Source of the DNA: Pontiella agarivorans
Lineage (GTDB): Bacteria; Verrucomicrobiota; Kiritimatiellia; Kiritimatiellales; Pontiellaceae
Reading direction: 5' to 3'
NCBI RefSeq assembly: GCF_034531395.1
Contig: NZ_JARVCO010000010.1
Location: 1,116,001-1,180,000, forward strand
Length of the DNA: 64,000 bases
The notes under the pieces are model-generated. The model worked only from the letters and a program-made list of their open reading frames with translations. It did no database searches and was not told where the DNA came from. Position 1 is the stretch's first letter. Every line of letters begins with the position of its first letter. This document shows, piece by piece, positions 21,322 to 26,202 of this stretch. The position numbers were made by a program, and so were the translations under genes.

Positions 21322-21425
21322 AAAAAAAGACCCGGGAGGTTAGGCCGGGTTCTTTTCGGAGTAACGGGCGGCGGTGAGTTTGGGTTCACTTTGATTACCG
21401 CTGATGCCCTGTATTGAAATTGGTT
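21322..21425 (-). ncRNA. Candidate small RNA, copy A (downstream of the ECF sigma gene)
   Basis: Predicted from its own promoter (21431-21461) to a T-run at 21322-21328. First hairpin: GGGC/GCCC and GCGGT/ACCGC arms (21366-21375 with 21397-21409) closing a loop that holds AGTGAACCCAAAC. Then a single-stranded TTACTCCGA (21356-21364), then the terminator stem ACCCGG/CCGGGT with loop containing CCTAACC. The loop, the TTACTCCGA and the terminator core are identical or near identical to copy B, while stem bases differ. No reading frame is apparent. Its function is unknown; C-rich loops and CUCC could pair with ribosome sites. Confidence 0.72.
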
Positions 21426-21430
21426 TGTCT

Positions 21431-21461
21431 ATGTATACGAGGGCAGGCGGGGGAGTGTTAC
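21431..21461 (-). promoter_or_regulatory. ECF-type promoter of small RNA A
   Basis: Minus strand GTAACACT, 14 bases, CGTATACAT. Both boxes and the exact 14-base spacing recur at 24689-24719. An AAC-containing -35 and a CGT-containing -10 are usual for ECF sigma factors. The neighbouring ECF sigma factor is the obvious candidate reader, by inference. Confidence 0.7.
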
Positions 21462-21480
21462 CCGGAAACGAACTTTTTTT

Positions 21481-21504
21481 AAAAAAATTCCAATGGTTGG
21501 AAAA
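21481..21504 (-). terminator. Terminator of the kinase-sigma operon, made from a TTCCA-N4-TTGGAA palindrome
   Basis: On the minus strand TTTTCCA-ACCA-TTGGAA runs directly into seven T residues, 25 bases after the sigma-factor stop. Confidence 0.75.
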
Positions 21505-21528
21505 TGCGTCGAGAAAAGGTATTTTTTC

Positions 21529-22137
21529 TCAACCCAGTTCGCGGTTGAGTCGGGTGATTTCTGTTCTCATCTTTTCGAAGACTTCGGCTTTGTAAACTCG
21601 GACGCTGGCTTCGGAAATACCCAGTTTAGCAGCAATTTCTTTCGTTGGGACTTCGTCTGAAACCAGCCTAAAGACATCCCGTTTGGTGTCGTAGATGCCG
21701 CCCTTGATATTGTCCCACGCCAGATTCGTAATGTGCAGCACCCATTCTTCACGGGCAAGGTTTTCAATATCGGGAAGCACCTGCTCTTCGATCGATACAT
21801 ATTGCTCCTGATATTCCACAGAGTCGCGCCCGGTAATAAAATTTTTCTTGGTTCGGAAAAAATCTTTCACGGTATTACGGGTCATGGCTGCCAGCCAGTT
21901 GTGGAATTTTCCTTTGTTCTGGTTGTATTCAAAATCTTCGATTTTCTGCCAGACTTTTGTGAGTACAGCCTGGCTGATGTCCTCGGCATCATCGGCATTA
22001 ATGCCCATGCGCAGAATCAGACTGAGGATGAAGGGACGATAAATGGTCTCGAATTCGAGCCACGCTTCGTGATTCTCGGTCTTTTTCAACTTTGCCAGCA
22101 GGGTGACCCGTGTTTGATATTGGTTTTCTTCACTCAT
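21529..22137 (-). CDS. ECF-family RNA polymerase sigma factor
   Basis: A 202-residue sigma-70 family protein with only regions 2 and 4. Region 2 has ADDAEDISQAVLTKVWQKI and WLAAMTRNTVKDFFR; region 4 has the helix-turn-helix VPTKEIAAKLGISEASVRVYKAEVFEKM. It is encoded one base after the kinase gene on the same strand, so the two form a unit. Kinase-linked ECF factors are established in planctomycetes and some proteobacteria, where phosphorylation activates the sigma factor. No anti-sigma factor gene is adjacent, which fits that model. Confidence 0.9.
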   Translation of the reverse strand: MSEENQYQTRVTLLAKLKKTENHEAWLEFETIYRPFILSLILRMGINADDAEDISQAVLTKVWQKIEDFEYNQNKGKFHNWLAAMTRNTVKDFFRTKKNFITGRDSVEYQEQYVSIEEQVLPDIENLAREEWVLHITNLAWDNIKGGIYDTKRDVFRLVSDEVPTKEIAAKLGISEASVRVYKAEVFEKMRTEITRLNRELG

Positions 22138-22138
22138 A

Positions 22139-24349
22139 TTATAGGCCGGAATAAATAATGATTACACCGCGCCGGGACAAGGATTGGATGGTGGGATCTT
22201 CGCGGAAGGCTTCGGACACCGTCAGCATTTTCAGATTGCGCAGCCAGATCAGCTGCGGGGTAATGGTGAGACCTTCGATCCGGCTGATGTCGAGTGTCCG
22301 GAGCCGGGAATATTTCAGGATATTTGAAATATTGCGGATATTAGTGCCGCTGATATCCAGTGATTGCAGCGAAGTCAGTTGATCGAGATCAAACAGATGG
22401 TTGAGCTGACTGCCGCTTAGCCGAAGTTCTACCATTCCCGGTTCTGTCAGCAGACGGAGGTCGGGGCTGCCCGTACCATTTGCATTCAACATCATAACCT
22501 GCAGGCCACAGAGCGGCGTGATATCGTCGAGATCTGGATTGCCGCCGATATCGATAATCCAGCCGCGGGACCCCGTCGGTTGCCACTGAAGATTGATTCC
22601 GCCAGCTTCCGGATTGAGGATTTCCAGTGCTTCAGCAAGGGCGGAAAAACGAGTTTCGGCCTGAAAACTGGATTTGTTCAGCTCGTAGAAAAAGCGGGGA
22701 AGCTGCTCGGCAACATTATATGCAACAAAATCTTTTACCAGTTGAGGCAGCTGTTCATCTGTCATTTCATCTAGCGTACTGTATTTCCTGGCGAGGCGGA
22801 CGGAGGGCGGGTCTTTGGTGACCGCATGGCCGTGGTTACCCGAAAGGATGTTCCAGGCTTTGGAAAAGTCGCGCTGGGCAAGCAGTATTCTGCCTTTAAG
22901 AAGCCAGGCGTCTGCAAGCTCTGGATCGAAGGCCAGAGCGGTATCGAGGGATTTTTCGGCCTTTGAAAAAGCCAGGTCATTTTGCTGCTGCCGGGCCAGG
23001 TTGAGGTAATCGGGGGCCACCTGCCTTGCTGTGCTCGCAATATATTCATTTTTTTCCTGTAACCGGCCCAGCGCATCCAGGGCTACCTGCTCGCTCTGTC
23101 TGACCGACTGAAAACTGCGGGCGGTGACGGCGGCAATAACCGCCACCGTGGCGGCGACGAGGCTGACGGCCAACTTGTGCCGTTTCACGAGCAGCAGCAG
23201 GTGCGTGAGAAAGGTCGGATTTTCCGCCGTGGTTGCAAATCCTTCCTGATATTTGTGGATATCACTGATCAGGGTGGCGACATTCGGGTAGCGGTCTGCA
23301 GGATCAAGTGCCATGGCTTTCATAACAATGGCACTGAGTGCGGCTGGAATTTTTCGTTCCGGGGCGCGGGTTCCAGGCATTGGAAAATCAGCACGCACTG
23401 TTTTCTGCAATACTTCTTTAACCGTGTCGCCTTTGAAGGGGCAGTGGTAGGTCAGAATTTCATAGAGAAGGGAACCCAGCATGTAAACGTCGGTTTGGAA
23501 ATCAATGTCCGATGGAACCCCCTGAGCCTGCTCCGGCGACATATAGCCCGGCGTTCCGCCTACTACATTTTTCCGCTCACGCTGTTTGGCGGACCCTTTG
23601 AGATAGCGAGTGAGGGTTTGGCCGTTTTCGAGCTCCACATCGTCCATGCTCTGCCAGGAAACCGTTTCTCCGTCATATTCATTAAGGTGTGTAATCAGTG
23701 TGGAAAGCCCCCAATCGAGTACGTGCACATCACCGAAATCGCCCACATTTATATTCGAGGGCTTCAGATCGAGGTGAATTACGCCCTTGGTATGGGCATA
23801 GTCGATGGCATTGCAGACTTTTAGAAAAATACCGAGCAGACGAGTGCGGGTATAGCGCTTTACATATTCAGCATCGTCAGAGCGCAACTGATGGAGGATA
23901 TCGCCCAGCGTTTCTCCCTGTAATGCTTTCATTGTAAAATACGGATTGCCGTTTTCATCCAGAGCAATGTCATAAATTGGAATAATATTAGGGTGCTGGA
24001 GGTTTGCCGTCAGCCGGGCTTCATAGAGAAACGAATCGATATCGTCTTCGGATGCGATCTTCGAATCCTGAATCAGCGCCATGGCCACTTTGCGGGCTGT
24101 GCGATGATCGTTGACCTCCCAGATCGATTTCATGCCGCCTTCGTTCAGTTTTCTGTTGGCGGTATAGCGGTCTTCCGGTTTCTCATCCATCAGGCTGTCA
24201 CGCCCGCTGGCCGAATTACGCTCCAAGTCTTCTTCAAAAAGAATTTTTTCGGTGTTGGAAAAAATAATGTCATCCGCAAAAAGGCTGGCATTCCCGATTT
24301 CCCGGCGGGGTGCTTCAGTTTTTCGGGGTGTATTATCGGCGTTGTCCAT
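22139..24349 (-). CDS. Membrane Hanks-type Ser/Thr kinase with TPR and leucine-rich sensor region, atypical active site
   Basis: A 736-residue protein from the ATG at 24349 (a TTG at 24385 would add 12 residues). The kinase domain spans about 62-370: catalytic loop HLDLKPSN at 192-199 (Asp194, Lys196 and Asn199 kept; the HRD Arg is Leu), DWG at 212-214 in place of DFG, GGTPGYMSPEQ at 264-273, and helix-C Glu110. The glycine loop reads NEGGMKSIW, and the beta-3 lysine position is Ala91 (VAMA). One membrane helix lies at about 393-412. Outside it are TPR-like repeats (430-500) and degenerate leucine-rich repeats at the C-terminus, probably the sensor. Co-transcribed with the ECF sigma factor. 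Confidence 0.88.
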   Translation of the reverse strand: MDNADNTPRKTEAPRREIGNASLFADDIIFSNTEKILFEEDLERNSASGRDSLMDEKPEDRYTANRKLNEGGMKSIWEVNDHRTARKVAMALIQDSKIASEDDIDSFLYEARLTANLQHPNIIPIYDIALDENGNPYFTMKALQGETLGDILHQLRSDDAEYVKRYTRTRLLGIFLKVCNAIDYAHTKGVIHLDLKPSNINVGDFGDVHVLDWGLSTLITHLNEYDGETVSWQSMDDVELENGQTLTRYLKGSAKQRERKNVVGGTPGYMSPEQAQGVPSDIDFQTDVYMLGSLLYEILTYHCPFKGDTVKEVLQKTVRADFPMPGTRAPERKIPAALSAIVMKAMALDPADRYPNVATLISDIHKYQEGFATTAENPTFLTHLLLLVKRHKLAVSLVAATVAVIAAVTARSFQSVRQSEQVALDALGRLQEKNEYIASTARQVAPDYLNLARQQQNDLAFSKAEKSLDTALAFDPELADAWLLKGRILLAQRDFSKAWNILSGNHGHAVTKDPPSVRLARKYSTLDEMTDEQLPQLVKDFVAYNVAEQLPRFFYELNKSSFQAETRFSALAEALEILNPEAGGINLQWQPTGSRGWIIDIGGNPDLDDITPLCGLQVMMLNANGTGSPDLRLLTEPGMVELRLSGSQLNHLFDLDQLTSLQSLDISGTNIRNISNILKYSRLRTLDISRIEGLTITPQLIWLRNLKMLTVSEAFREDPTIQSLSRRGVIIIYSGL

Positions 24350-24457
24350 AATTGTCCAAAAGTTGGGAAAAGCTAGCACGGGCAAACGAAACGGGCAAAA
24401 AAAAAGGGAGTCGCGGGATATCCGTAACCCTGAGAGTAGGTGAACAAAATTTTTCTA

Positions 24458-24481
24458 TTTCATACATTGCAATGTATGAAA
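24458..24481. promoter_or_regulatory. Perfect 24-bp palindrome, site 1
   Basis: TTTCATACATTG and its exact reverse complement, about 110 bases upstream of the kinase start. The same palindrome (22 bp core) recurs exactly 60 bases away. Probably an operator for a dimeric repressor or activator of the kinase-sigma operon; the regulator is not identified. Confidence 0.65.
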
Positions 24482-24517
24482 TTAATAAATACTTCCTATT
24501 AATAGGGTTAAATATAC

Positions 24518-24540
24518 TTTCATACATTGCAATGTATGAA
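24518..24540. promoter_or_regulatory. Perfect palindrome, site 2
   Basis: Second identical copy of the TTCATACATTG palindrome. Between the two lies AT-rich DNA with its own ATTAATA...TATTAAT symmetry. The 60-base spacing is close to six helical turns, putting both sites on one face of the DNA. Confidence 0.65.
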
Positions 24541-24571
24541 GATGATGGCCATTCTGAGGAACGGTAGGGGC

Positions 24572-24683
24572 AAAAGAAAACCCCGGGGGGTTAGGCCGGG
24601 GTAGTCGGAGTAATTTTTGAAGCAGGTGCAACGGGTTTGGGTTCACTTGAGCTGCGTGCTTCAATATAGGTTGTTGTTGGGTT
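24572..24683 (-). ncRNA. Candidate small RNA, copy B (upstream of the kinase gene)
   Basis: Homologue of copy A with the same order: promoter, hairpin with conserved loop AGTGAACCCAAAC, single-stranded TTACTCCGA (24605-24613), terminator stem ACCCCGG/CCGGGGT with loop CCTAACC and a T-run at 24572-24580. The first hairpin has a perfect 8-bp outer stem TTGAAGCA/TGCTTCAA (24617-24624 with 24657-24664) and an inner stem 628-632/651-655. One inner pair is G-U only if the minus strand is transcribed, which supports this direction. Stem sequences differ from copy A, so the base pairing has been kept by compensating change. Confidence 0.72.
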
Positions 24684-24688
24684 CATTA

Positions 24689-24719
24689 ATGTATACGTAG
24701 GGGGGATTCGAAGTGTTAC
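24689..24719 (-). promoter_or_regulatory. ECF-type promoter of small RNA B
   Basis: GTAACACT-N14-CGTATACAT on the minus strand, identical boxes and spacing to the promoter at 21431-21461. The 14 spacer bases share only a C-rich run. Confidence 0.7.
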
Positions 24720-24867: not shown

Positions 24868-26106
24868 TTAGAAGCGCAGTGTGCCGCGGATCCAGAACAC
24901 GGTTTTGTCGGGGGTTGGGCTTCCGCTTTCGCCTTTCATATAAAAAGCGGCGCCGGTGAGTGCATCGAAATTTTTGCAGACTTTATATTTCACCATTGCA
25001 TCAATTTCGTTGCCGAGATTTCCGGAAAAGGTCCCCGCGGGGGTGCTGGCGGCAGTGTTGAAATAGTGATAGACCGCAATCAGGTCCAGACTTTCTGATG
25101 GAGTGACGATGCCTTTCAGCCAGACGTCGACGAGTCCGAGCGGAAGGCCTGCCCCGGTACCCAGAAAAACATCGGCCCAGCCGTTGAACGCGTGTGCTGT
25201 TCCGTTCAGGGTCTGGAACTGTTCCCGGGAGGAATCGCCTCCGGAGATATATTCTGCGCCGAGTTCAATATCGGCAGCTTCGAGGTCGAGCATGCCGGAA
25301 AGGGAACCGTAGTAGGCATCTCGCTGAAAGGCGAGCATGGCATTGTGTTCGAACGATTCATTTTTACCCCAGAAACGAGCGCCGAATGTGTCGATATCCG
25401 CTGATCCGTTGTTGCGCTGCAGGTAGGCAAATGCAGAAACTCGGTTGTTTTCGCCCAGTTTGTATTCGCCGTTCATCAGGTGATACTGGCGGGTGTGGTT
25501 GATGTCACCGTCAGTGGCATTGATGCTGTCAGCGTATGCATAGAGAAGAGTCAGACTCTCTATGGAATCATTCTTAACAAGTCCGGCGTTGAAGGACTGG
25601 GCGTTGAAGCGCCAGCCGACATTGCCGATGAAACGGGCATTGTCGAGAATGATTTCCTGAGAGCCGACGCGGGCAAGGGTGTCGTATCCGGTATAAGAGA
25701 GATAGGCTTCGTGCAGTCGGAATGATTCGGGATCGGCTACGGTGTCATAGGCGGGATCCTCCGGGGAAAAATGGTCATTAATGGGGGCGACATACTGGCC
25801 CAATATTTTTCCGCCGAAGCCTTCATCATTCTGGATTTCATACGAGACACGTGTGCGGGAGAGCAGGGCATTGGCGGTTTTCAGGCCGTTTCCGGACTGA
25901 TCGGCATATTCATAGCCCAGGAGCACTTCTGCAGACAGTTGGCCTTCTTTAAGTTTTTCGGCGTTGGCCCATTCGTCGAGCGAGGGCCACTCTTGGTGGC
26001 CTTTCGTCTGTTCAACTTCGGCTTTTTCCGGTTCTACAATTTTTGCGTTTTCTGCCGCATAGGCGGCGGAGGCCACAAGTGTGGCGGTCATCAACAGATG
26101 TTTCAT
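24868..26106 (-). CDS. Outer-membrane beta-barrel porin-like protein
   Basis: A 412-residue protein with a Sec signal peptide (MKHLLMTATLVASAAYA, cut before AENAK). It has alternating aromatic/polar beta strands throughout and a C-terminal Phe (IRGTLRF), the usual barrel-assembly signal. The pattern (SRTRVSYEI ... QYVAPIND ... LRVGSQEI-like strands) resembles the alginate-export/porin group, but the substrate cannot be read from sequence. The ATG at 26106 is preferred over 26112 because AAGGGGA then has proper spacing. It is a single gene with its own terminator, next to the small RNA/kinase module, and so is a possible regulatory target. Confidence 0.82.
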   Translation of the reverse strand: MKHLLMTATLVASAAYAAENAKIVEPEKAEVEQTKGHQEWPSLDEWANAEKLKEGQLSAEVLLGYEYADQSGNGLKTANALLSRTRVSYEIQNDEGFGGKILGQYVAPINDHFSPEDPAYDTVADPESFRLHEAYLSYTGYDTLARVGSQEIILDNARFIGNVGWRFNAQSFNAGLVKNDSIESLTLLYAYADSINATDGDINHTRQYHLMNGEYKLGENNRVSAFAYLQRNNGSADIDTFGARFWGKNESFEHNAMLAFQRDAYYGSLSGMLDLEAADIELGAEYISGGDSSREQFQTLNGTAHAFNGWADVFLGTGAGLPLGLVDVWLKGIVTPSESLDLIAVYHYFNTAASTPAGTFSGNLGNEIDAMVKYKVCKNFDALTGAAFYMKGESGSPTPDKTVFWIRGTLRF

Positions 26107-26202
26107 GTGCATCCCCTTTCGTTAATTGGCATGAATCTGTATATATTTAGAAAAAGCATAGTTGAAAATTACATTGAAGCAAGGCTGATCATTGCGGGCG
26201 TA

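Follow-up and report, generated by a model that had tools for sequence, protein, structure and literature searches.

A membrane serine/threonine kinase gene and the adjoining gene of an extracytoplasmic function (ECF) sigma factor, located in a 64,000-nucleotide stretch of the Pontiella agarivorans genome (contig NZ_JARVCO010000010.1, positions 1,116,001 to 1,180,000; hereafter the window), are flanked by two members of what is, on the basis of sequence analysis, a genus-wide family of sibling small RNAs (sRNAs) that share a single dedicated ECF-type promoter and in most, though not all, cases lie beside the kinase–ECF pair. On the minus strand the order is RNA B (24688-24572), kinase (24349-22139), ECF sigma factor (22137-21529) and RNA A (~21430-21322), with one base between the kinase stop codon and the ATG of the ECF gene. 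The whole system is interpreted, with somewhat more confidence than doubt, as a chain in which an envelope signal would act through the kinase on the ECF sigma factor and this, through the dedicated promoter, on sibling sRNAs repressing translation.

The exact promoter box GTAACACT-N14-CGTATACAT was found at 21431-21461 (RNA A, minus strand) and 24689-24719 (RNA B, minus strand), with 0 occurrences expected in shuffles. Pattern scans, which covered the whole 4.44-Mb genome, gave exactly these two matches and 0 in the reversed control. A relaxed promoter search yielded a third copy, RNA C (G000:C10:680626-680715, promoter 680716-680746), which is placed 457 kb from RNAs A and B, after fusA, and is syntenic in another species. 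The consensus of the family promoter is an A-tract followed by [AG]TAAC[GA]nT-N14-CGTAT[TA][AC]A[TA], from which the exact box of RNAs A and B differs. TAAC and CGTA were present in 45 of 45 RNAs, always with a gap of 17 between them, and an A6 tract is located 14 bp upstream of TAAC; 26 of these RNAs were first found with a pattern allowing gaps of 16-19, and 17 were not selected on the promoter. All of the 17 copies found by the promoter-free RNA model alone carried this promoter, with identical spacing. The UP-like A-tract kept across the RNA family occupies 21474-21480 (minus strand) ahead of the RNA A promoter.

The pattern RTAACRNT-N14-CGTAT, searched over 28 genomes, gave 32 matches in the genus, corresponding to 25 RNA promoters and 7 other sites, the latter no more numerous than the 9 matches of the reversed control, and the three matches in this genome were all RNA promoters. 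A promoter matrix trained on other species, without this genome, was scanned over 0.86 Mb and assigned 34.6-40.9 bits to the promoters of RNAs A, B and C (39.7 bits for RNA A and 34.6 bits for RNA B); the next-best site, with 12.8 bits, corresponded to an apparent decayed fourth RNA copy near RNA C. Sites with up to 3 mismatches were at control level. Because pattern and matrix scans found almost no other sites, the promoter is regarded, as far as these scans reach, as dedicated to the RNA family; the family being essentially the sole carrier of the presumed ECF promoter in the genome, the pathway probably acts mainly through regulatory RNAs.

Downstream of each exact box is an RNA gene of ~110 nt, in which an unpaired UUACUCC linker joins a hairpin to an intrinsic terminator. 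The bodies of RNAs A and B could be aligned, with the common blocks AAGTGAACCCAAAC, TTACTCCGA and CCCGGCCTAACC, and their predicted folds were more stable than those of dinucleotide shuffles (z -2.1 and -4.6, respectively). RNA B (24572-24688, minus strand) consists of the 5' tail GAACCCAACAACAACC, hairpin 1 with a GUGAACCCAAACCC loop, the unpaired linker UUACUCCGA and the terminator, and RNA A (21322-21430, minus strand) of hairpin 1 with a AAAGUGAACCCAAAC loop, the same linker UUACUCCGA and its own terminator. Members of the family have a length of ~90-125 nt. Their 5' single-stranded tail is usually GAACCCAAC. The stem of hairpin 1 varies freely and its loop contains one or two AACCCA motifs; the linker separates this hairpin from the terminator, whose loop often repeats AACCC. 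The ACCC(A) motif recurs within each RNA, in the 5' tail, in the hairpin-1 loop and often in the terminator loop, and, like the ACTCC linker, is mostly unpaired in the predicted folds. The mean duplex energy of hairpin 1 was -12.3 kcal/mol with the own arms of each molecule and -8.5 kcal/mol with swapped arms, 0 of 5000 permutations being as good, in a shuffle that ignores relatedness and takes the arms from each molecule's own fold, which favours own pairing; hairpin 1 is accordingly supported by compensatory variation. A small-protein reading was rejected, as frames were not conserved and stops occurred in all three frames; RNA B of the window does contain a 31-codon open reading frame, attributed to chance.

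A covariance model was built with 24 RNA bodies, promoter sequence excluded; RNAs A, B and C were among them, so that their own scores (99.7 bits for RNA B and 87.4 bits for RNA A) are not independent. With this model the RNA was detected in 25 of 28 genomes of the Pontiella group (only a weak match in G018), with three copies in this genome. Outside the genus, no convincing match was obtained in other families; weak matches (E above 1e-4) were present in relatives outside the genus, and the three that were read lacked the promoter and were judged to be chance terminators. No Rfam family matched the window above its gathering score, supporting the family as new to Rfam, and no small-RNA paper on Kiritimatiellota turned up in the library that was searched. 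Searches with the ECF protein, followed by reading the stretches before the kinase gene and after the ECF gene, placed the same RNA on both sides of the kinase–ECF pair in many species. Genomes carry from one to a few copies, some of them distant, and in several genomes none flanks the pair; G009 has a tandem pair. The apparently decayed fourth copy of this genome (G000:C10 ~678792, minus strand), 1.9 kb from RNA C and with a mutated promoter, is syntenic with a decayed copy in G025 (G025:C1:3931539-3931633).

An earlier sequence-only reading of this locus had described an RNA–kinase–ECF–RNA order on the minus strand with two exact N14 boxes, which coordinates, shuffles and the genome scan bore out, and two related RNA genes with intrinsic terminators, which the common blocks, folds and covariance model confirmed. 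The kinase–ECF operon without adjacent anti-sigma gene and the ECF-type character of the promoter were also upheld, and the genome-wide search for the box that it had proposed returned just two exact matches instead of a scattered distribution. Its twin flanking sRNAs held insofar as RNAs A and B do flank the pair; they are part of a family of three in this genome, and some genomes have no flanking copies. The search in relatives that it had also proposed found the family across the genus, but adjacency to the kinase–ECF pair was not constant.

The kinase–ECF pair is syntenic across the genus, with identities of 73-96% for the ECF sigma factor and about 43-88% for the kinase, and no anti-sigma gene is located beside the operon. 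In every genome of the genus at least 90% complete, the ECF orthologue and the RNA co-occur, and the exceptions are less complete genomes. The ECF sigma factor (21529-22137, minus strand; 202 aa) has Sigma70_r2 and region 4, and its region 2.2 keeps DAED, the motif being DAEDISQ[A/T] in nearly all orthologues. The marker of group ECF43, the replacement of DAED by phosphorylatable STTA/QTTA, was not found in this protein, which is therefore not ECF43-like in that respect, and its activation step is one that we infer. It shares with kinase-linked ECFs generally (ECF59/61/62/217-like) the kinase neighbour, the lack of an anti-sigma gene and the conserved DAED. This genome contains 11 ECF-family matches including this one, and the eight paralogue regions inspected all have kinases. 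In place of the ECF-type promoter, the operon itself carries a different promoter-like sequence, TTGCCC-N14-TGCTACnnT, conserved at 18 of 23 loci; here, the putative promoter, of sigma70-like extended -10 form, is TTGCCC-N14-TGCTAGCTT upstream of the kinase (24370-24398, minus strand). Read as housekeeping-type, this promoter suggests that the sigma factor would be controlled by its activity.

The kinase (22139-24349, minus strand; 736 aa from the ATG) has a kinase domain at ~60-370, a transmembrane segment at ~392-411 and a C-terminal region with TPR/LRR-like similarity. Its residues include HLD192-194 and DWG212-214; the beta3 lysine is replaced by Ala91 (minus-strand codon 24077-24079), and Lys74 (24128-24130) is located in the glycine loop. 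Every orthologue read, and each of this genome's eight inspected kinase paralogues linked to an ECF gene (L175-L182), has alanine instead of the beta3 lysine (VAMA or similar) and a lysine in place of the third glycine of the glycine-rich loop (GGMK, GGEK, GGLK). Among the kinases examined in other families of the class, most had the canonical beta3 lysine and none had a lysine at that loop position, and the shifted arrangement was present in G028, of a different genus within the same family. In the position of this lysine the active site matches that of eukaryotic WNK (with-no-lysine) kinases, in which the beta3 lysine is absent and a lysine is placed in the glycine-rich loop; a 2007 kinome survey considered Wnk the only functional eukaryotic protein kinase family without the beta3 lysine and described the same shift (PMC1821047). 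It looks like a convergent, WNK-style relocation of the lysine in bacteria.

According to the proposed pathway, the membrane kinase would detect an envelope signal with its periplasmic part and would then activate the ECF sigma factor transcribed with it; phosphorylation is the probable means, as in known ECF–kinase families and in view of the missing anti-sigma gene. RNA polymerase carrying this sigma factor would read the A-tract and [AG]TAAC[GA]nT-N14-CGTAT, a promoter whose dedication is seen in the sequence and whose sigma dependence is presumed, and would drive only the RNA family, represented here by RNAs A, B and C. With the operon made from a housekeeping-type promoter, the sigma factor would be constitutively present and regulated by activity. 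The RNAs would be trans-acting siblings, most likely repressing translation by pairing at ribosome-binding sites without Hfq and using redundant C-rich seeds as in Listeria LhrC. The Shine–Dalgarno consensus of the genome is AGGAG, and the ACUCC of the RNA linker is complementary to its GGAG core; translational control by base pairing is favoured because of this complementarity and because redundant C-rich unpaired motifs are an LhrC hallmark. An Hfq-dependent mode was discarded, as no Hfq match was obtained in this 97% complete genome, whereas Hfq was detected in 5 control genomes. The porin mRNA encoded directly upstream of RNA B, to which the conserved adjacency of the two genes pointed, was tried as a target of this RNA and found unconvincing, since the long-range duplexes differ between species and no pairing is conserved.

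Several data weigh against this pathway. The C-rich segments of the RNAs showed complementarity to translation starts no better than that of shuffles (627 genes, 0.86 Mb, about 20% of the genome), and the tail, loop and linker segments were not enriched beyond shuffles against the same starts. The kinase lacks the canonical beta3 lysine, so that its activity must rest on the relocated one. G021 (81% complete) has an RNA match and no close ECF orthologue was detected in it. Other kinase-linked ECF paralogues could be the readers of the RNA promoter, given ten more ECF-family matches in the genome, and its control by the ECF sigma factor described here is presumed. That the promoter is read by another sigma factor, such as one of these paralogues, the link to this kinase–ECF pair being positional only, is considered rather unlikely. 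The kinases found at the inspected paralogue regions and the distance of the RNAs from the pair in several genomes are in its favour, but no other family member is nearly as well conserved as this ECF orthologue, the paralogues being mostly ~26-38% identical and differing widely in number from genome to genome; G012 and other small genomes have just one other ECF member, and many genomes have RNA A or B next to the pair.

The main rival to base pairing is protein titration, less probable than the pathway proposed and nonetheless the strongest of the alternatives, in which the RNAs would be decoys whose several unpaired ACCC(A) motifs bind a translational or RNA-processing protein and relieve its action. 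The repetition of an identical motif in separate single-stranded places, with stem sequences free to vary, would suit such a role, several copies per genome fit a dosage mechanism, and the null result against the 627 translation starts points in the same direction. CsrA is present in the genome, but GGA motifs number 0-2 per RNA, mostly none, and for this reason CsrA is not the partner and a CsrA sponge of the CsrB/RsmY type was ruled out on motif; no other candidate partner protein was identified, and titration does not account for the linker, whose ACUCC is nearly invariant and complementary to the Shine–Dalgarno core. A cis-acting or incidental nature of the RNAs, ECF-driven and feeding the kinase by partial terminator read-through from RNA B without any role in trans, is very improbable: many genomes do have RNA B immediately before the kinase gene and in the same orientation, but the unpaired motifs and the structure are kept across three loci, including RNA C beside unrelated genes, the kinase has its own promoter-like site, and the family persists in genomes without flanking copies.

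Other features were observed around the locus. A porin-like gene (Alginate_exp; 24868-26112, minus strand) is located directly upstream of RNA B, which follows a gene of the same type in many genomes; this adjacency is kept in several genomes with the kinase–ECF pair elsewhere, and a DEAD-box helicase gene follows there instead. Two copies of the palindrome CATACATTGCAATGTATG, at 24521-24538 and 24461-24478, are 60 bp apart; the genome has 14 identical copies, including two pairs at exactly this distance, versus 0 in the control, and at the corresponding locus of the close relative G025 the palindromes are similar but differ in their centre. Another palindrome, TCCAA-N3-TTGGA, has 8 sites in the window and 92 in G000:C10:1-800000, versus 0-2 at other spacings. 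Some of its sites are placed just upstream of gene starts, and it may be a repeat element or else serve a global regulator as operator.

If the proposed pathway is true, it would represent a bacterial sigma factor working essentially only through regulatory RNAs. Kinase-coupled ECFs have been described in several groups of Planctomycetes and are mostly uncharacterised; here, such signalling would be tied to an output measurable by one northern blot. The genus-wide family (25 species-level genomes) and its unusually information-rich promoter are ready for study, and cultured relatives (Pontiella strains) may allow it to be tested.

Among known systems, ECF43 members associated with Hanks kinases (EcfP/PknT, EcfK/PknS) are activated by phosphorylation, with no anti-sigma factor (PMC8999054, PMC13147305). 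As in these, the ECF gene described here adjoins that of a transmembrane Hanks-type kinase, in a conserved pair; in contrast to ECF43 members, which lack DAED, this motif is retained, a feature that other groups linked to kinases are described as having. Protein genes make up the known regulons of ECF43, for example those of the type VI secretion system or polymyxin resistance. In envelope stress, the ECF sigma factor sigmaE drives the trans-acting sRNAs MicA and RybB, but sigmaE differs from the system presented here in its large protein regulon and its anti-sigma factor, and its sRNAs use Hfq. LhrC1-5 of Listeria monocytogenes are under LisRK, and Hfq is not required for their effect on lapB (PMC4132741). 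The RNAs of Pontiella resemble them functionally, with no homology claimed, in being multicopy and in combining a repeated C-rich single-stranded motif in a loop, a single-stranded stretch and a terminator; they differ in the motif, ACCC(A) instead of UCCC, and in the control element, an ECF-type promoter. GacSA of Pseudomonas has been described as acting exclusively through the sibling sRNAs RsmY and RsmZ (PMC4132741). The regulator here comprises a sigma factor and a Ser/Thr kinase, unlike GacSA, a two-component system, and the RNAs carry ACCC motifs, unlike RsmY/RsmZ, whose GGA motifs bind CsrA/RsmA; here too, the only recognisable promoter-bearing sites are sibling RNAs. It is tentatively suggested that, in Kiritimatiellota, a WNK-style kinase may activate an ECF sigma factor that would directly control sibling sRNAs alone and no protein-coding gene, as an ECF counterpart of GacSA–RsmYZ built on ACCCA repeats.
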